Source: a virus
Direction: 5' to 3' (one strand)
DNA: 42,964 nt
Virus record (IMG/VR): IMGVR_UViG_3300050821_007730
Span: 1-42,964 of that record
Each line of letters starts with the position of its first letter. Positions within the stretch are counted from its first letter, which is position 1. Of this stretch, positions 15,894 to 42,299 are shown in pieces. The notes beneath the pieces are model-generated. The model saw only the letters and a list, made by a program, of their open reading frames with translations. It made no database searches and was not told where the DNA came from. The position numbers and the translations under genes are program-made.

Positions 15894-17723
15894 TTACCGC
15901 GTCCGCCGATTGATCGCTGCGATTTCTTCGTCGGTCAGGGCTGCTGGGTTGTACGTCCCTCGATATTGCTTCATGGCTCCCATGCCGCCTCGGGGCTCGA
16001 TGGTCTTCTCACCCATGTCCTTCAGGCGCTGGAGAACCTGCCGCACTGTCTGGGGGCTGGGATCGTTCACCCGCGCGCCCTTCGCTGCGAGCTTCCACTG
16101 ATCGGGGGTCATTTTTGCGGCGTCTTTATAGGACACTCCGCTTTCGGCCTCACCGTTGGCGTCGTAGAGAAACTTCACCAGCGCGTCGGTTTTGCGGGCG
16201 CGTGCATTGGCCTGATAATCCGAAATCCGTTGCATGGTCGCTTTGGACATGCGGCCCGGCGTGGGCTTCCAGGATTCCGGGAGTTCAGGGGCGGGGGCAG
16301 CCGCGGGGATTGCATTTCGGTCGATGACAACCTTCGCAGGAAGCGATTTCACGCCCAACTCATCGAGCGCGGATAGACGATGGCCGCCTTCGAGGACGTA
16401 TGGACCTTTCTCGTCCATTACAACGATAAGCGGGTTGATTTCGCCGGATTGCTTGATCTGCTGAGCGAGTTGATGCACTCGTCTGAAATCGTCTGCCGCG
16501 TAGAAGTTGCCTTTCGCGGAGGCATCCGTAAACGCGGAGAGGGGCACTTCCCGAACGCCCGGCAACTCTTCAGGGTTCTCAAGTGAGCTATCGATAGAAC
16601 GCAGATTCGGGATGGCGTCCCGCACTGTCAGGCCGGAAACCTGAGCGCCCGCTTTTGGGTAATCTCCGGGCGCGGTCGGCTTCGGTGTTGCGGCGGGCGG
16701 AGGTTCGGGAGCTGCCGCTGCCGGCATCTGTTCCGGGAGCTGCGATTCAATTGCGGGGGATTTAATAGCGGGCGCGGTCTCCGGCGGCCCTTGCGGCGCA
16801 ACCCGCAGTTTGAGGCGGACGGGCTGAAATCCGGCGGCGGGCGGGGCTGCTGCAGTATTTGCCGCCGGGTTTTCCGGTGTGGGGGTTACGGGGCTTGTTG
16901 CGGTAGTTGTTGGTTTCTGTGGGTTTGTTGCGGTTTCCCCGGCCTTAATCCGCTCCGCCAGGTCCCGAATCGTGGCCTGCTCTTCCGCCGTGGCCCGCTT
17001 AAAGCTGGTCTTGCCGAAGCCTTGGGCCAGGCCGTCGAGGAGCTGGGCGTCTTCCGCGGCAGTTGCCGCGGCCGGGGCGGCCGCTTCGGCTTCCGGCGCG
17101 GCCTTGGATACGGCGTTCGCGATCTTGCTGCCGATCCGCAGGGCGTGCGCCGCGCGGGGCGAGACCAGGCCCACCACGTCGGGCGCAAGCCCCATGTTTT
17201 TCTTGAGGAGCCCCATGGCGGCGCCGGCGCCCTTCGCCACTACCGGGCCGGCCGCGCCGAGGGCCGCGGCGTCGAGAGATTGCCCCACGTCGCCGCCGGT
17301 CTGCACTCCGCGCACCGTGCCGGCCGCGACAGCTTGCGCGGCCATTTTGCCGGCGAGCCCGGCGCCTTTGGCGACGTCGGCCGCGGCGCCGGCCGGTACC
17401 GCGAATTCCGCGCCCTGCTCCAGGAACTTCCCGACTTTGGCCGAAACTGTGTCCGGCGGCTCGGCGTACGATAGCACCTCGTCGGAAATAGCGGGTAGAA
17501 CTTTCTCCGCGCCGGGGATCTTGCGCAGAAGCTCGTAGGCGCCGAGCACGGTACCGATGCCGCCGGCGCCGACTCCCGAGATGAAATCGGCTACGTGGCC
17601 CATGCTGGGATGGGCGGTCTGCTGGTGGTCGCGGTCAAATGCGGCAATGTCCGCGTCGGTCAATGACCGCGGCGCGGCGTCATGCTGCGCGATATCGGCG
17701 TCGGTGAGAACCTGGCCGGGCAT
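15894..17723 (-). CDS. Large internal (ejection) protein with a ParB-like domain
   Basis: A 609-residue protein. It opens with two copies of LTDADIAxxD (residues 6-28), has Gly/Ala-rich hydrophobic segments (about 47-175) that could insert into membrane, a long Pro/Ala/Thr-rich disordered part (about 215-370), and a ParB/sulfiredoxin-type domain at about 388-470 (REVPLSAF, QQIKQSGEINPLIVV, LEGGHRLSALDELG, LPAKVV). The C-terminal 120 residues are helical. Placement after the p20-like and 536-residue proteins matches P22 gp16-type ejection proteins. The ParB-like fold may bind or cut nucleotides or DNA. Confidence 0.6.
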   Translation of the reverse strand: MPGQVLTDADIAQHDAAPRSLTDADIAAFDRDHQQTAHPSMGHVADFISGVGAGGIGTVLGAYELLRKIPGAEKVLPAISDEVLSYAEPPDTVSAKVGKFLEQGAEFAVPAGAAADVAKGAGLAGKMAAQAVAAGTVRGVQTGGDVGQSLDAAALGAAGPVVAKGAGAAMGLLKKNMGLAPDVVGLVSPRAAHALRIGSKIANAVSKAAPEAEAAAPAAATAAEDAQLLDGLAQGFGKTSFKRATAEEQATIRDLAERIKAGETATNPQKPTTTATSPVTPTPENPAANTAAAPPAAGFQPVRLKLRVAPQGPPETAPAIKSPAIESQLPEQMPAAAAPEPPPAATPKPTAPGDYPKAGAQVSGLTVRDAIPNLRSIDSSLENPEELPGVREVPLSAFTDASAKGNFYAADDFRRVHQLAQQIKQSGEINPLIVVMDEKGPYVLEGGHRLSALDELGVKSLPAKVVIDRNAIPAAAPAPELPESWKPTPGRMSKATMQRISDYQANARARKTDALVKFLYDANGEAESGVSYKDAAKMTPDQWKLAAKGARVNDPSPQTVRQVLQRLKDMGEKTIEPRGGMGAMKQYRGTYNPAALTDEEIAAINRRTR

Positions 17724-21528: not shown

Positions 21529-23214
21529 TCAGTCCGCCCCCGCTATCTCTCCCAGGTAGGCGTTGAACAGCGCCACGTCCACTGCTGCTGCGATGGTCAC
21601 CCGGTAAATGCGATTCCAGGAGTGCCCGATTCTCCGCCACGGAATACCCGCCCGTTCATTGCTCCGCGCCTGCCATCCGGCGGGGTGTTGATTACTCCAC
21701 GTCTTCGCGCCATCGTCCGACCAGTCGAGGATGGCGATGAGGCCGGGCGCTCCCTGCATAGCGAGGAAAAAGCGTGTGTCGAACAATCGAAGATCTTCGT
21801 TGAACAGATAGGGTGACGTGCGGATGCGGTGAATGAGGGTTCCACTATTCCCCGTGCCGCTCAAGTTGTCTGTGAGGTAGTTGGTGGGATTGACCCCTAC
21901 CGTGTAGATTGCGCCCGTGGACCAATCGCCCCCGTAAAACGCGGGGCTCAGTGTTCCCAATCCGACGTACCCCTGAAAGGCCACGCGCGAGCGGTCTACC
22001 GATGTCCCATTCCAGTACCCGCGGCGGTGCCACATTTGGGAAGTGAAGTCATAGGACCAGGTCGCGTTTGCGGTGGGAAAACTGATGTTCCAAAAGTGGT
22101 GGCCGTTGAAAATCTCCCCGTATGAAATCGCATCCGAAACCTTGGTGTACGATCCCCACGCCTGCTCGACCGCGTGCGTGGAGATGCGCACTGGCTGGTA
22201 GCCTTGCGCGTACACCGCCATGATGCCGCCGCGGCGCACGTCGCGCGCCAGCCAGCCCACGCCATTGTTGACCCTGAGTGGGCTAAACGGTGCGGTGCAG
22301 GCGTAGTGGATGAAGGCGCCGGGGTCTCTCTGGTACGGGAAATTCGGCTGCACTTGACCGTTGTTCCGCCAGACTTCCGAGGATTCCAGGTCGCCAAAGA
22401 GCCACATCTCCTCGTGATCGGCGAGGATGCCCGCGAGGTTATCGGGGTAGCCTTCTTTGGTGGCGAATTGCGTTGGGTCCCAACTGCTCCCGCCGTTCAG
22501 GTCCACGTTGAGCACGTAGCTCAAATAGAACTTATTCGAGTTGAAGCCCTTCTGAGCCCAGAAGTAGCCATCCAAATAACTCACTCGCACGCCGGGAACC
22601 CGCTGCGCCGCCTGGCCTCCCGTAGAACTTACGGTGCCAGCGGAGCCGCTCAGCGTTGCGTTGCCGGAGCCATCGACGGAAAGGACAGTGAGGAATCCAA
22701 CTGTAAAACCCGTTCCTCCCGTGATGTCGATGCCGTCTCCGACGTCGCCCGCGGTAAAGGGAAGCAGCACGCTGGATACGATGTGGCTGTTGCTCCCCGA
22801 GATAACCAGGTCCGTCCATGGATTGATGAAGTGGACGGCCGCCACGCTTGCTCCGGTGTCGAGCCAAACCCAGCCATTGGAAGCCAGCAATATCTGTGCG
22901 CCGTTGGCCACGATGTCCACCGGGTTGCCGTCGTTTCCGATGTCCCCTTGATCGACTGTCGAGCCATCTTGCATCACCTCGTAAAAGTGAGAGCCGCCTA
23001 CTGCAAAGAGCCGGTTTTCGCCGGCCAGGACTCCACGTACCGGCGAGTGGGGCAACGTGGTGAACAGGTTCAGCCCCGGCGTCCGGTAGTACACGAACTT
23101 GTTTTTTCCCGCGCCCGATTCGACCAGCTCCGGGTACCAGTTCAGACAGTCTTCGGCATCGGCATTGAGACTGCTCGATTGGTAGGTGGGGCCGATGAAA
23201 CCGTTGAAGAGCAT
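21529..23214 (-). CDS. P22 gp10-like packaged-DNA stabilisation / tail accessory protein with inserted beta domain
   Basis: A 561-residue protein resembling P22/Sf6 gp10: it opens MLFNGFIGPTYQSSSLNADAE, has the WPT-like RTPGLNLF line, the central EMWLFGDLESSEVWRN block and the ending GIPWRRIGHSWNRIYRVTI. gp10 forms the hexameric part of the tail that plugs the portal with gp4. Residues about 135-204 are extra: DLVISGSNSH...GDVGDGIDITGGTGF...TGG, a beta domain also found in the neighbouring gp4-like protein at 23259. Its start is next to the 30-bp repeat block. Confidence 0.8.
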   Translation of the reverse strand: MLFNGFIGPTYQSSSLNADAEDCLNWYPELVESGAGKNKFVYYRTPGLNLFTTLPHSPVRGVLAGENRLFAVGGSHFYEVMQDGSTVDQGDIGNDGNPVDIVANGAQILLASNGWVWLDTGASVAAVHFINPWTDLVISGSNSHIVSSVLLPFTAGDVGDGIDITGGTGFTVGFLTVLSVDGSGNATLSGSAGTVSSTGGQAAQRVPGVRVSYLDGYFWAQKGFNSNKFYLSYVLNVDLNGGSSWDPTQFATKEGYPDNLAGILADHEEMWLFGDLESSEVWRNNGQVQPNFPYQRDPGAFIHYACTAPFSPLRVNNGVGWLARDVRRGGIMAVYAQGYQPVRISTHAVEQAWGSYTKVSDAISYGEIFNGHHFWNISFPTANATWSYDFTSQMWHRRGYWNGTSVDRSRVAFQGYVGLGTLSPAFYGGDWSTGAIYTVGVNPTNYLTDNLSGTGNSGTLIHRIRTSPYLFNEDLRLFDTRFFLAMQGAPGLIAILDWSDDGAKTWSNQHPAGWQARSNERAGIPWRRIGHSWNRIYRVTIAAAVDVALFNAYLGEIAGAD

Positions 23215-23217
23215 GGC

Positions 23218-23260
23218 AGTCGAAAACGGCAGTCGAAATTAGTCGAAGTCAGTCGAAACT
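23218..23260. repeat. AGTCGAA tandem repeat block between the gp4-like and gp10-like genes
   Basis: Three tandem 10-bp units, AGTCGAAATT, AGTCGAAGTC and AGTCGAAACT (23231-23260), follow a fourth AGTCGAA at 23218. They fill the 44-bp gap before the gp10-like gene. The 30 bp agree with the block at 38152-38181 in 29 of 30 positions. Protein binding, recombination or packaging are the possibilities. Confidence 0.6.
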
Positions 23261-24191
23261 ATGCCGCCGTGTTCGGATTCTGCGGCGCCGGCGCATCCGG
23301 TACCGGGGGCGCTTCCGTAGCCGACTGGTTGGACTGCTGAAGGCCGCGGAGCTCGACGAGCGTGGTGAGCGCCGTTTTGGCGATCATTTTTGCTGTGGCA
23401 GCATCGACTCTTCCATATTCCGGCATCAGGTCGAGCGCCAGATTGAAGCGGATGGCTTTCCAGAAGCCGGGGGGAAGGGCGAGAGGCTGATCGTACGTGG
23501 CGACTCCGCCGGTTTGTCCCAACGTTCCGACGTTCGCGGAGAGAGTGGCCGCGCCGCCCGCTACGGAACTGATGGAGTAGCGTCCTGCCGTGAAACCGGT
23601 ATAGCCTGCCGGCACATTGAGGAAGTTGCCCACGTCGCCCGCTACGAAGGTGTAGGAAGCGCTCGTTACCTTGGCGGCATTGGCTCCGTCAATGACCAGG
23701 TCGGGGAAAAGCAACGTGGTGAGCGCCACATATTCACCCCACGTGTAGAGGTCCAAGGTGGTGGAGGTGTCCGCCGTCGAGGGCCAGAAGTTGAGGGTGA
23801 CCAGCGGGTTTGCATTGTCGTTATACAGCAGCTCGGGTACTTTGGCCGTGGCCGCTTTGTCGAAAATGCGCGCCCAGCGGAGCGCGCCCACTGGTTCGAT
23901 CGGGGTACGCACCCCTGCCCGGATTGCGCCTGCCGATTCGATCTTGATCGGCCGCGTGGTGTTAAACGTTCCGCTCGGACCCATGGTCACGGAGTTGATG
24001 CCGGAGGCCAAGGCCTGGGAGAAATTTACGATAGAGAAAATCTGGAGCTGTTGCGTTTCCCAGTTGGCGAGAAGATCGTTCAGCCGATAGAGCCCATCTT
24101 GCGCTTCGTACGGATTCGGCAGCTCGCCCGCGGCGGTGGCTCCAATTAGCGTGAGAGCATGTACCACGAGGTCGCCAGCAGTGAGGGCCAT
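23259..24191 (-). CDS. P22 gp4-like head-completion adaptor with inserted beta domain
   Basis: A 310-residue protein, probably the dodecameric adaptor ring that joins portal to gp10. Family signs are the opening MALTAGDLVVHALTLIGA, NDLLANWETQQL, TTRPIKIESAGAI, LNFWPSTADTS and LPPGFWKAIRFNLAL. Between LFP (163) and YDQPLALPPG (234) it carries about 70 extra residues (DLVIDGANAAKV...AGDVGNFLNV...TGFTAGRYSISSV...TGG) related to the insert of the gp10-like protein. The close relative at 24480 lacks that insert. The stop lies at the edge of the AGTCGAA repeats. Confidence 0.75.
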   Translation of the reverse strand: MALTAGDLVVHALTLIGATAAGELPNPYEAQDGLYRLNDLLANWETQQLQIFSIVNFSQALASGINSVTMGPSGTFNTTRPIKIESAGAIRAGVRTPIEPVGALRWARIFDKAATAKVPELLYNDNANPLVTLNFWPSTADTSTTLDLYTWGEYVALTTLLFPDLVIDGANAAKVTSASYTFVAGDVGNFLNVPAGYTGFTAGRYSISSVAGGAATLSANVGTLGQTGGVATYDQPLALPPGFWKAIRFNLALDLMPEYGRVDAATAKMIAKTALTTLVELRGLQQSNQSATEAPPVPDAPAPQNPNTAA

Positions 24192-24192
24192 G

Positions 24193-24483
24193 TTACTTTT
24201 CTTCTTTCAGCCCGAACAGATCGCGGGCGGCGTGGGACGATTTGTTAAATTCGGCGTAGTCGATGATGCCGCGGGGGCCGGTGCATTCTTCGTAGAGCGT
24301 GGCGTGCGGGGGGCATCCGAAGTACTCACGCACGAACACTTCCCAGTGCTTCTCGAAGGTCACGATGCGCGGCGTCAGATCTTCGGGGGGTGCGCCGAAC
24401 AGGTGGCCCATGTACGCGCAAACTACGAGGTAAGCGAGCAGGACGATTAAGGCGACTGCCACACCGTCCACGAACGTTCTCAC
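24193..24483 (-). CDS. Small membrane-anchored protein between two gp4-like genes
   Basis: A 96-residue protein starting at GTG 24483, which overlaps the upstream stop (GTGA); the ATG at 24504 is less likely. Residues about 6-26 are a transmembrane helix (GVAVALIVLLAYLVVCAYMG) and the rest is a soluble domain with two Cys (YFGCPP, YEECTGPRG) and an aromatic/charged end. It could be an anchored accessory of DNA ejection or a lysis/superinfection factor. The family is not recognised. Confidence 0.5.
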   Translation of the reverse strand: MRTFVDGVAVALIVLLAYLVVCAYMGHLFGAPPEDLTPRIVTFEKHWEVFVREYFGCPPHATLYEECTGPRGIIDYAEFNKSSHAARDLFGLKEEK

Positions 24484-25244
24484 TCGGGCTGCCCCGTGAT
24501 CCAATTGAAGTCGCTCCGCGTACCTCCGCTCGATCCCAGGCCCGCGGCATCATTCATCAAACGCGGCGACTGGGTATTGCGTGACTGAATGGCGGAGAGC
24601 GACGAGCGCGCGATATCCAGGTCTTCGGGCGACATCCGCGCCCCTTGTGACTTAAATTGCCCCGCTACCCGCTTGGCCAGGTTGTAGACGATGGCCTCTT
24701 CGTAGCCGGGGGGAAGCTGGACCAGGTCATTGACTGTGACGGCCGTAGGGACCGCAGACCAGGTGTGCAGCTCGAAGGGGTAGACAATCGCTGGGATGGG
24801 CCAAAAGTAGAGAGTCGAGAGCGGCGAGGCGTAATCGTCGAACAGCTCGAGCGGGGGGCCGTTGACGTTGAGCACCTGCTTGGCCGCCCAGTCCGCGGGC
24901 TCCAGCAGCCGCATTCCCCGCCGCACCACACTCGGGCTCGAGGTGATGAAGAGGTTCGCCCGCTCGATTTTGATCGGGCGCGCGGCGTTGATCCACGCCG
25001 GACCCGTTCCCCCGGGCCCGATGGTGTACTTCTGGGTGTTCGCCACCAGGTTGTACTGGCTGATCAGAATGGTGAAGATATTGAGCTTGATGTTCGACCA
25101 GCTCCCCACCATGCGGTTGTAGATCGCGAAGACATCCTTGTACTGCGGATCGACCAGCACATTGGACGGACCCCGGCCCGGACGGTCAGTAATACCTGCA
25201 ATGCGGAGGGCTGCATAGAGCAGCGTGGAGAGGATGACACCCAT
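24480..25244 (-). CDS. P22 gp4-like adaptor protein, second copy without the insert
   Basis: A 254-residue protein parallel to the 310-residue one at 23259: ARPIKIERANLF corresponds to TRPIKIESAGAI, LYFWPIPAIVYP to LNFWPSTADTST, and LVQLPPGYEEAIVYNLAKR to LALPPGFWKAIRFNLAL. It therefore belongs to the gp4-like adaptor group but lacks the inserted beta domain, so the insert site is visible by comparison. Both copies may build a two-layer connector, or one may be a specialised relative. Its C-terminal 40 residues are polar and probably flexible. Confidence 0.7.
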   Translation of the reverse strand: MGVILSTLLYAALRIAGITDRPGRGPSNVLVDPQYKDVFAIYNRMVGSWSNIKLNIFTILISQYNLVANTQKYTIGPGGTGPAWINAARPIKIERANLFITSSPSVVRRGMRLLEPADWAAKQVLNVNGPPLELFDDYASPLSTLYFWPIPAIVYPFELHTWSAVPTAVTVNDLVQLPPGYEEAIVYNLAKRVAGQFKSQGARMSPEDLDIARSSLSAIQSRNTQSPRLMNDAAGLGSSGGTRSDFNWITGQPE

Positions 25245-26424: not shown

Positions 26425-27390
26425 TTAGTAGAGGTACACGTACGGCCCAACTGCCGTGGTGAAGGTGGTCGGAATGGTGAGCGCCGCCACGGTTCCGAAA
26501 GTGCCGGCGGTCTGCCCCTTGGTGAGGTAGGTATCTTGCGTGCCGGTCACGATCATGCGCGCCGTGTCCGTGGTCCCGTTGGACTGGAAACAGGCGTAAT
26601 ACTGCGCCGGCCCCACCGCGTAAAACTTGGCGGTGAAGGCGCGCGCCTGGTAGGTGCTGCTGGTGGCCGTGACTGCGCCCGCCACCGCGCTATTGGCCAG
26701 CGCATTGCCGGCCGAATCGTACAGGATCACCAGCCAGTTGTCGGTCGCTACGGTGGTTCCCGCGAGGATGGCGATTCCCGTGAGCAGCTTATTATGCGGC
26801 AGGTTCACTTCCGTGCAATACGTCTCGGTCGAAATGAGCGAGGTACCGTTGGTGTTGAGCGACGTATAAGCGGTGCCTCCGGAATCCGGGAAAGGGTACC
26901 GGAACTTGGTAAGGGGAGTGCGGAGGCCGATCACCCACTGGCCGCCGATGCAATCGGAAATCACGCCGGCTCTGGCGTTGATGTAGGGCAGGTAAAGCTG
27001 ATTGGCCCGCTTACAGGTGCCTTGCGGGGTGACTTCGCGCACGGCGTTGAAAGCCTGGGGAGGCCCCAGCCAGACGATGGCGCCGGAGACATGCGGGGCC
27101 GCGGCCGTGCCGCCGTAGCCGCGGATGATGCCGGTGGTGGTTCCCACGGCGCCGCCGCCGGGCAGGAGTTTCAACATCACCATTTCGTTGTCGATGAAGC
27201 CGACCGTACCGACGCCGACCGTGTAGCCGGTCACGGTGGTGATGCTGCCCACCGTCATGATCTGGCTCGACGAATCGGCGATCGCGGCGGAAAGGGTAGT
27301 GGGAGTGAGGATGACCTGCGCGTGCGAGGCGGGTACCGCGATCAGCAGCGCAACCAGGAAAAGAGAGGCGTTTCGAAAGATGTTATTCAT
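26425..27390 (-). CDS. Large protein with signal peptide in the head gene cluster
   Basis: A 321-residue protein. The ATG at 27390 begins a clear signal peptide (MNNIFRNASLFLVALLIAVPASHAQ, probable cut after SHA). The mature protein has a beta-rich fold with IIRGYGGTAAAPHVSGAIVW (about 87-107), a motif common in phage structural and fibre modules, and a Gly/Thr-rich C-terminal half. It stands directly after the coat gene, where virion proteins are expected, so export is surprising. It may act at the cell surface, or be a head decoration whose leader is not cleaved. Confidence 0.55.
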   Translation of the reverse strand: MNNIFRNASLFLVALLIAVPASHAQVILTPTTLSAAIADSSSQIMTVGSITTVTGYTVGVGTVGFIDNEMVMLKLLPGGGAVGTTTGIIRGYGGTAAAPHVSGAIVWLGPPQAFNAVREVTPQGTCKRANQLYLPYINARAGVISDCIGGQWVIGLRTPLTKFRYPFPDSGGTAYTSLNTNGTSLISTETYCTEVNLPHNKLLTGIAILAGTTVATDNWLVILYDSAGNALANSAVAGAVTATSSTYQARAFTAKFYAVGPAQYYACFQSNGTTDTARMIVTGTQDTYLTKGQTAGTFGTVAALTIPTTFTTAVGPYVYLY

Positions 27391-27417
27391 GGTGTTTTCT
27401 CGAAGTTGAATTTGGAA

Positions 27418-27446
27418 GGGGCCGCCGTTTTTCAACTGACGGCCCC
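27418..27446 (-). terminator. Terminator-like hairpin after the coat gene
   Basis: Arms GGGGCCG (plus 27418-27424) and CGGCCCC (plus 27440-27446) with a 15-base loop, six bases after the coat stop at 27453; the minus-strand transcript continues TTCC. It could set the ratio of coat to downstream proteins. Confidence 0.45.
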
Positions 27447-27452
27447 AACTGG

Positions 27453-28688
27453 TTACGCGCCGACTGTGCAGACTGCGCCGTTGTCTTGATAGAGAGCGCC
27501 GAACCCGCCGAGCGAATCCATGCGGTTGATCTGCATGGAGCGCACCGGGTCCCAAGCCTTCACCTTGCGGATGGACATCCCGGTATCGGGGTCCTGGGCC
27601 GCGCCGCTATCTTCGACTGCCTTGGGGACGTAGAGTTTCGCGCCCACGAAGGCGTGTGCGAAGCGCGAGAGCGCCAGGCCGACCGTTCCCACCTTGCCGT
27701 TGGGCGAGGAGGTGCCGGGCCAGAGGGTGAGAGCCGCGGCATTCAAGGGAAGGGCATCCACGTTCTGGTATTGCGAGCCAGGTCCGTAGATGGCCGGCAG
27801 GAAGTTAATCACGTCGACGTTGCCGCCCGCGGCGGTCAAAGCCGTGGTGATTGTGAACTGCGCCAACGTCGCCTTACCCGCAATGCGGCGGGTCATGGGG
27901 TTGACCGCATTCACGGCGTTGAGGTTGAACTTGTCCCCGACGTTGAACGTGTCGCCCGCGGTGGCGGTGATGGTCAGCGAAGTCCCGCTCTGGCCCGCGC
28001 CATAAGTCGAGACAGTCGAAGCCCACGTGCCCGCGGTGTGCGAGTAGAGAGAATTCGACTCATAGCACATGAAGCCGGCCAGCTCGCCGATCACTCCCTC
28101 TTTCCAGCTCCGCGTGATTTCATCGGCGGGGTGAAAGATGGTCGTGATGTTGGTTCCGAGAGACTGCATCATGGAAGAGCTCCAGATCATGCAGCGCTTG
28201 CCGGGAGGGCAGGCCTTTTCTTGGAGACGCTGGCGCGCCTGATAGGTCTGCGATACCGAGGTGGCATCGGTCCCGAGCACGCCCACGACGTTGGAAGTGT
28301 TCTGATAGGCGAACTTGGCGCAGCGGGAATCCCATTCCTGAGCCAGGGCCGCGGCGGCGGGGTCCAGGTAATTCTCGCGCAGCTCGGATTCGGACCGCTC
28401 TAATTTCACAGCGGCTTCATAGTCATCCCATTCAAAGGCCACTTGCAGCCACTGATCGAGAGAGACCGTGGTCGAAATGCGGTTGATCCCCTGCGGCTGA
28501 TAGCCCATACCATCGGCCACGGTGAAGCGCTGGGGGAATTTCTTGGTGATCTGCGAGCCGGGAGCGAACTCTTTCTTGAAGTCCTTCTCGGCGGATCGAT
28601 CGAAGTACTCGGCGACTACCAGCTTGTTCAGCAGCAGCCGGAGGATCTCCATGGAGACCCAGTTGGTGTTGAGGAAATTATTGGCCAC
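27453..28688 (-). CDS. Major coat (capsid) protein, P22 gp5-like
   Basis: A 411-residue protein starting at GTG 28688 directly behind the scaffold stop, with AAGGACG upstream. It resembles P22-type coat proteins: N-arm (MANNFLNTNWVSMEILRLLLNK), the VAFEWDDYEAAVKLERSES region, the large HK97-type core, the extra I-domain-like stretch (NLNAVNAVNPMTRRIAGKAT...TAAGGNVDVINFLPAI) and the C-terminal KVKAWDPVRSMQINRMDSLGG. It should self-assemble with scaffold into the procapsid. Confidence 0.85.
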   Translation of the reverse strand: MANNFLNTNWVSMEILRLLLNKLVVAEYFDRSAEKDFKKEFAPGSQITKKFPQRFTVADGMGYQPQGINRISTTVSLDQWLQVAFEWDDYEAAVKLERSESELRENYLDPAAAALAQEWDSRCAKFAYQNTSNVVGVLGTDATSVSQTYQARQRLQEKACPPGKRCMIWSSSMMQSLGTNITTIFHPADEITRSWKEGVIGELAGFMCYESNSLYSHTAGTWASTVSTYGAGQSGTSLTITATAGDTFNVGDKFNLNAVNAVNPMTRRIAGKATLAQFTITTALTAAGGNVDVINFLPAIYGPGSQYQNVDALPLNAAALTLWPGTSSPNGKVGTVGLALSRFAHAFVGAKLYVPKAVEDSGAAQDPDTGMSIRKVKAWDPVRSMQINRMDSLGGFGALYQDNGAVCTVGA

Positions 28689-41327: not shown

Positions 41328-42299
41328 TTAGAGACCCAATTTAGAAACGGGATTGCCGCGGAACGGATCTTGCGAGCGGAAGTAACGACGGAGGTTTACG
41401 AGCGAGCGGTGGCCCGTCTGCGCCGCCACCACAAATTCGCCGACCCCGTTTTCAATCGCTTCTGTCACGAAACCCGAGCGGAGGGAATGCGCGGCATAGC
41501 TCCGCGGATCGAGGCCAACGCTGGCGACGGCCTTCTGCACGATGACGCCGATACGATTGGGATTGAGCCGCTTCAACGTGGCCACGTATCCGCGCCCCAC
41601 GGTCTGGGTGAACACCGGACCAGGTTTATCATCGCCCCGCACGTCCAGCCAGGCCCGGAGCGCTTTCACAGGGCAGGTTTCGGAATGCGCGCCGGCGACG
41701 ACGCCCAACACGCGGCCGATCCCTTTCTGGTCTTGCTTCTCGCGCCGGATCAGCACGGACACGCCTCCCTCGAGGAAACGCAGATCGGCCATATCGAGCG
41801 CACACAGGTTCGAGCGTCTCAAGGCTGTGGCAAAGCCGAACAGCAGGATGGCGCGATTGCGCACTACCTCGGCGCGCGCCTCGGTCATGTGGCCGAGAAT
41901 CTGGCGGAGCTGGTCGACGGTGAGCGGCGTTTTCTGGTCGGGCTGCTCGCAGCGGATGCGCTGGGCGCCGGTGAGCAGCGCGTAGACTTCGCGCGTGCAG
42001 GGCGATTCGTGGCCGGCCTGGCGGTGGCACCAGCGGATCGCGGAGACGAAGCGCGCGGCGCTGGTGATCTTGTAGCCGCGGCTCAAGCGATCGGTGAGAT
42101 ACAGCGCGACGGTCGACGTGCACGCGGGCAGCGACTCATGGCCCGCTTCTTTACACCACGCGGTGAAGGCTTTCCAATCGCTGGCATAGCCCAGCAAGGT
42201 CCGCGGCGCGCGGAGGGCGCGGGCAAGTTCCAAGCGGTACTGCGCGAGCTCTTCTTCGGTAGGAATGATTCCAGTGGGATGAGCGAGGGGCCGAGACAC
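41328..42299 (-). CDS. int: Tyrosine integrase
   Basis: A 323-residue tyrosine recombinase with an N-terminal SAM-like core-binding domain (residues about 14-110) and the catalytic domain. Active-site residues visible are Arg161 in ATALRRSN, Lys188 in RREKQD, His271 and Arg274 in AHSLRSG, His297 in TGHRS and Tyr306 in LRRYFRS. It starts at GTG 42299. It should catalyse site-specific integration of the phage at a bacterial attB, with attP near one of its ends. No excisionase gene was recognised. Confidence 0.85.
   Translation of the reverse strand: MSRPLAHPTGIIPTEEELAQYRLELARALRAPRTLLGYASDWKAFTAWCKEAGHESLPACTSTVALYLTDRLSRGYKITSAARFVSAIRWCHRQAGHESPCTREVYALLTGAQRIRCEQPDQKTPLTVDQLRQILGHMTEARAEVVRNRAILLFGFATALRRSNLCALDMADLRFLEGGVSVLIRREKQDQKGIGRVLGVVAGAHSETCPVKALRAWLDVRGDDKPGPVFTQTVGRGYVATLKRLNPNRIGVIVQKAVASVGLDPRSYAAHSLRSGFVTEAIENGVGEFVVAAQTGHRSLVNLRRYFRSQDPFRGNPVSKLGL

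Follow-up and report, generated by a model that had tools for sequence, protein, structure and literature searches.

The stretch analysed here, all 42,964 nt of IMG/VR virus record IMGVR_UViG_3300050821_007730 (hereafter the window), carries two adjacent tail genes, one for a gp10-like nozzle protein and one for a gp4-like head–tail adaptor, whose products share a beta domain of about 70 residues. This raises the question of whether the domain entered both proteins as a pair, and of what it might do in the tail. A sequence-only reading of the locus had taken the two copies as the outcome of one mobile domain entering two touching partners, and had suggested that it might decorate or lock the tail. 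The account favoured here, and considered rather probable, is that the domain is a beta module reused across the virion, filling a slot in the nozzle and independently acquired by the adaptor.

Two homologous inserts in unrelated proteins

The limits and shared motifs of the two inserts are as first described (Table 1). Comparison of the gp10-like and gp4-like proteins by BLASTP gives an E-value of 2e-12 (42 % over 106 columns), with 49 % protein identity between the copies over the aligned domain, and their Smith–Waterman score is 142, where shuffled sequences average 36 (Z = 16). A tblastn search of the window with the gp4 copy returns these two places only (6.7e-42 and 6.3e-12), and a profile of the module, here termed type A, finds no third copy in it. 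One domain family is thus inserted in two adjacent proteins that themselves belong to unrelated families, gp10 nozzles and gp4 adaptors.

Both copies are true insertions, because the module is absent at these sites from 12 of 12 aligned gp4 relatives and 15 of 15 annotated gp10 relatives from GenBank phages. Alignment also confirms that the second gp4-like protein of the window lacks the segment whilst its flanks line up with those of its neighbour, and most members of the gp10 and gp4 families are without it, Rhodoferax phage P26218 being one insert-free relative. Taken together, these alignments demonstrate homology of the module and its insertion in both proteins.

A recurrent slot in the nozzle propeller

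The gp10-like protein belongs with the P22 gp10-type nozzles (podovirus nozzle–hub, Hc3 family). It matches phrog_578 (head closure Hc3) with an E-value of 4.9e-63, and its family profile finds the solved nozzle or hub structures of Pan3 (9VYG, 2e-49), Pam1 (7EEQ, 1e-46), P22 gp10 (8TVR, 1e-12) and Sf6 (7SG7). Its AlphaFold2 model, built from 64 sequences (predicted local distance difference test, pLDDT, 93; predicted template modelling score, pTM, 0.90), matches P22 gp10 (5.7e-25), the SU10 nozzle (1.7e-13), T7 gp12 (1.3e-10) and the nozzle-type proteins of Sf6, Pam1 and crAss001 in Foldseek. The model has platform strands at both ends and seven four-stranded blades, with blade 1 at residues 59–91, blade 2 at 100–126, blade 3 at 198–231 and blades 4 to 7 at 260–439. 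By strand count the insert spans 133–188, and comprises strands 133–138, 145–148, 161–166, 173–180 and 186–188 (local pLDDT about 95), flanked by a blade-2 strand (124–126) and a blade-3 strand (198–205); the model therefore places it between blades 2 and 3.

Domains at this position have been described before. The SU10 nozzle harbours four immunoglobulin (Ig)-like nozzle domains between blades 2 and 3 (PMC9509320), domain IG1 of the crAss001 muzzle gp44 is inserted between the same blades (PMC10172136), and, close to this site, the T7 nozzle-tip barrel emerges from a blade-3 loop (PMC6702177). As modelled, the gp10 module sits in this known insertion slot; it is a small beta module of another kind than those domains.

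Distribution amongst nozzles

Related loci were collected by a profile search, which gave 80; searches with gp4 or gp10 as a single sequence gave none. A tree of the gp10 core was built without the slot columns from 82 non-redundant homologues, a sample biased towards kin of the query; motif spacing, as a measure of slot length, failed to capture 42 of 103 sequences and was set aside. Modules occur in 29 of the 82, all within one clade of 32 (Shimodaira–Hasegawa-like approximate likelihood ratio test, 90), made up of uncultured soil-type podoviruses; the source of the window is likewise a short-tailed phage of soil type. Mapping the slot onto the core tree requires at least nine changes of state. 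Within the clade each protein has from 0 to 4 modules, of type A or of a second type B (GTVNTSGTAVTWVSGDQFDxSMVGxxITINGxxYTV...), mostly in the blade 2–3 slot; a relationship between the two types is probable (hhalign 93 %). Amongst IMG/VR nozzles the slot contains one to three type A modules (three in tandem in the nozzle of locus L009), type B modules, or arrays mixing the two, for instance B-A-B-A in L034; in L060 and L076 a B module lies elsewhere in gp10. The copy at the same site in L030 is 70 % identical to that of the window.

On the tree, then, the gp10 module is a clade-wide, swappable element and not a new arrival. The slot is nearly always filled in this clade, and its position is known from SU10 and crAss001. 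Near-neutral persistence, in which the inserts are tolerated, self-folding passengers spread by recombination amongst repeat-rich virion genes with no dedicated role, would fit the insert-free members inside the clade (L055, L049 and L065) and the other module types elsewhere in gp4 or gp10 (L019, L020, L024, L028, L076 and L097). Against it are the retention of the module by 29 of 32 clade members and the existence of arrays of two to four, and it is judged quite improbable.

Other inserts were encountered in nozzle proteins. In EBPR podovirus 1, gp29 (L028:6110-7684) has an apparently different beta module (ATVTLPAPVNWQSGSTVTIAGAAQAEYNG...) at the same nozzle loop and a second copy of that module further on, and its N-terminus looks shortened or divergent. 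In several IMG/VR nozzles a GIPxGTTVxSI-type insert lies in the adjacent blade-2 hairpin, just before the slot, at L097:1972-3717, L103:3983-5728 and L109:2608-4353.

Distribution amongst adaptors

The gp4-like protein matches phrog_12985 (3.8e-30) and phrog_637, head–tail adaptor Ad3 (1.3e-6), and its family profile matches P22 gp4 (8EB7 and 8TVU, about 1e-7) over two helical stretches only, as well as Sf6 gp7 (0.0022); its only Pfam match, to P22_Tail-4, is weak. The paralogue matches Pfam SU10_adaptor above the cut-off (9.7e-7, residues 63–200) and phrog_12985 (3.4e-18). Amongst about 190 gp4-like open reading frames (ORFs) sampled, 144 in the profile-found loci and 48 in a second, partly overlapping scan, the window protein alone carries a type A insert, making the gp4 insert a singleton in this sample. 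A search of plasmids with the gp4 core gave no match.

These distributions bear on the idea that the gp4 and gp10 inserts touch in the virion and lock the joint between the two proteins. Such a lock is very unlikely indeed, because L009, L030 and other clade members have gp10 modules alongside insert-free gp4 paralogues, so that the pairing is unnecessary. In its favour, both inserts are present in this phage and P22 gp4 and gp10 have been solved as one complex (8U10). The gp10 insert, however, is in the propeller, whereas it is the platform that meets the adaptor in T7 (PMC6702177) and SU10 (PMC9509320), and one 70-residue module per subunit is short for a bridge.

Gp4-like adaptors with other inserted modules, of the GIPAGATV or SGTGI.AGT type, were also seen (L024:3030-3980 of Xanthomonas phage PBR31, L019:2370-3353 and L020:3011-3979), these inserts lying at a different gp4 position, before the conserved RP motif. 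Two to four tandem gp4-like paralogues stand upstream of the nozzle gene in the clade (window 23259-25244, L030:1-2145, L042:1-1931 and L065:403-3994); for P22, T7 and SU10 one is annotated.

Fold and relatives of the module

Folded alone with an alignment of 17 relatives, the gp4 copy gives an all-beta unit (AlphaFold2, pLDDT 97) with the same strand order as the gp10 copy within its whole-protein model, so the two regions agree in predicted fold. Foldseek matches are weak but consistently of phage origin, comprising a decoration protein (8ECI), a capsular depolymerase, a tail tube and endosialidases, and, in BFVD, a pectin-lyase-like protein, tail fibre, sheath, baseplate and head–tail adaptor. 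The best PDB match is 8ECI, the decoration protein of Arthrobacter phage Bridgette (profile E-value 0.012; Foldseek prob 1.00, TMq 0.62), and phrog_1407 (major tail protein) matches the domain weakly (0.017). No Pfam family covers the module or the gp10-like protein, no Ig, FN3 or BIG family matches the module or either host protein in Pfam, and no Ig-type structure is present amongst the 50 Foldseek matches listed for the domain.

Searching 50,697 GenBank phage records by tblastn with four module variants gave no match. The module is, nonetheless, recurrent in IMG/VR phages, with copies in nozzles and at the N-terminus of beta-helix, tailspike-like proteins; an alignment-based scan of metagenome-assembled genomes found two beta-helix-type proteins. 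With copies in nozzle, adaptor and beta-helix proteins, the proposed mobility of the module amongst virion proteins is borne out.

Adhesion is the main rival to the favoured account: the modules may be carbohydrate-binding or adhesive decorations on nozzle, adaptor and tailspike-like proteins, raising avidity for the host surface as in 936 phages. In keeping with this, the module family is present on tailspike-like proteins, its nearest fold matches include a decoration protein and chains of depolymerases and endosialidases, the gp10 slot exchanges module types, and 936 phages are documented to bear one kind of host-binding module on Dit, MTP and neck proteins (PMC6669499). No carbohydrate-binding module (CBM) family in Pfam matches the domain or its host proteins, however, and S16 and G27 alone are invariant over 18 module copies, so that no conserved binding residue stands out. 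Adhesion is accordingly held to be possible, if somewhat unlikely.

Putative beta-helix spikes with signal-peptide-like N-termini were noted at L049:5447-6916, L007:3554-5791, L013:3365-6058 and L124:3596-5287; that of L049 carries a type A module, and its gene adjoins an insert-free nozzle gene. At L009:731-2488, a gene between two gp4-like genes has a weak right-handed beta-helix match.

Probable separate origins of the two copies

In a tree of the domain, the gp10 copy of the window pairs with that of L030 (96/96), L030 being also the closest nozzle relative of the window on the gp10 core tree (100), whilst the gp4 copy groups with N-terminal copies from beta-helix proteins (92/95). Forcing the two window copies into one clade is rejected by the approximately unbiased (AU) test (p-AU 0.021). 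No similarity between the copies was found at the nucleotide level, and GC and GC3 of each are nearly equal to those of its host gene; there is therefore no sign of recent duplication or import.

As the copies are not sisters, and display neither nucleotide similarity nor a compositional shift, the best reading is of two separate acquisitions, neither of them recent, each drawn from a common stock of virion modules. That in gp4 seems to be a rare one, made separately from that of gp10. Entry into two partners as one event is thus not upheld: the gp10 copy travels with the nozzle gene, whereas that of gp4 is a singleton and belongs to another sub-lineage. Recent duplication between the gp10 and gp4 genes was also considered, and is ruled out by the AU result, the lack of DNA similarity and the 49 % protein identity.

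Proposed role of the modules

Under the favoured account, phages of this kind would reuse the all-beta module of about 70 residues in many virion proteins. Six gp10 copies would lie round the distal tail, nozzles of this family being hexamers below a 12-mer adaptor; they would pack on adjoining subunits of the nozzle and be turned towards the cell surface, where the module may have a tip-building or contact role. A change of its type or count, from 0 to 4, would alter how large the tail tip is and what surface it presents. The gp4 copy, kin to N-terminal modules of tailspike-like proteins, would have joined the adaptor at the margin of its beta region. This margin may correspond to the fibre-dock part of T7- and SU10-type adaptors, a beta domain set between the helix pairs that is described in T7 (PMC6702177) and SU10 (PMC9509320) and not in P22 or Sf6. 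If the insert-bearing paralogue assembles into a 12-mer, as is usual, the neck would be ringed by up to twelve modules, which, by this analogy, would most likely give tail fibres or spikes an additional surface for docking or contact.

Several points weigh against this account. It draws on sequence and single-chain predicted models. The slot domains of SU10 and crAss001 are Ig-like, and no hidden Markov model match of the module was found in SU10 gp17, so the slot shared with these phages is an analogy of position. The gp4 insert was placed relative to the fibre dock by family alignment, direct alignment with SU10 gp11 or T7 gp11 giving nothing; single-sequence hhalign comparisons with SU10 gp11 and gp17 and T7 gp11 and gp12 were likewise uninformative. 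Foldseek E-values for the lone domain are weak (best 0.0045 viral, 0.093 PDB), and its fold relatives therefore count as leads. Finally, the domain tree covers 71 columns and has many weak forks. A broader scheme, in which the blade 2–3 loop would be a general cassette slot and the clade would swap modules amongst tailspike-like proteins, adaptor and nozzle, with the nozzle itself a participant in host recognition and the swapping tuning host range, is given a rather small chance.

Features of the locus

Upstream of the adaptor and nozzle genes are those for a portal and a P22-type coat protein. An integrase gene (window 41328-42299, minus strand; phrog_1, 1.3e-24) suggests a temperate phage. 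The product of 15894-17723 (minus strand), whose gene stands where one for an ejection protein is expected, includes a ParB-like domain (residues 404–469; phrog_4715, 8.7e-8), with a Pfam ParB_N match below the cut-off. Between the coat and adaptor genes, 26425-27555 (minus strand) would have a signal-peptide-like start (MNNIFRNASLFLVALLIAVPASHA) if an internal ATG is used.

Table 1. Adaptor and nozzle genes of the window and the modules they carry
Feature	Position in window	Strand	Details
gp10-like nozzle/hub protein	21529..23214	(-)	561 aa; platform and seven-bladed beta-propeller
Type A beta module in gp10-like protein	22603..22812	(-)	Residues 135-204, predicted between propeller blades 2 and 3
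gp4-like head–tail adaptor	23259..24191	(-)	310 aa; gene adjoins gp10
Type A beta module in gp4-like protein	23493..23702	(-)	Residues 164-233, flanked by the beta region and by the helix that follows LPPGFWKAIRFNLA
ORF between the two gp4-like genes	24193..24504	(-)	103 aa; no PHROG match
Second gp4-like adaptor paralogue	24480..25244	(-)	254 aa; without insert

Comparison with known systems and implications

Like the nozzle of this clade, gp17 of SU10 (Kuravirus) carries several domains in a row, four in SU10 and up to four here (PMC9509320), but those of SU10 are Ig-like with no detectable sequence relation to the module, and a conformational switch has been shown for SU10. The crAss001 muzzle gp44 similarly has a blade 2–3 insertion in a related seven-bladed propeller (PMC10172136); its IG1 is, however, Ig-like and of about 130 residues (163–292), and gp44 also possesses a large crass domain and a further Ig-like domain, both lacking from the window nozzle. 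T7 shares a beta-barrel off a blade-3 loop, and its adaptor and nozzle each bear small beta domains, the fibre being held between the dock domains of gp11 and gp12 (PMC6702177). Its docks have not been described as versions of a single module, though, that of gp12 is at another site, the propeller end, and the type A profile found nothing in T7 gp11 or gp12. In 936 lactococcal phages one kind of module is shuffled onto several virion proteins, the neck included (PMC6669499), yet these are siphophages, with recognised CBM/BppA folds and measured host binding, and the modules are not in a nozzle propeller. The Bridgette protein 8ECI differs in being a stand-alone capsid protein, and the match to it is remote and below usual significance.

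With regard to the wider meaning of these two inserts, a neck protein seems, in the case of gp4, to have captured a module of the tailspike type. The swappable nozzle slot is of more interest than the pair of copies, as it ties scattered electron cryo-microscopy observations from SU10, crAss001 and T7 to one recurrent insertion site of short-tail nozzles. Moreover, the clade offers a natural series of zero to four exchangeable modules, which could be used to probe the role of nozzle-tip domains.
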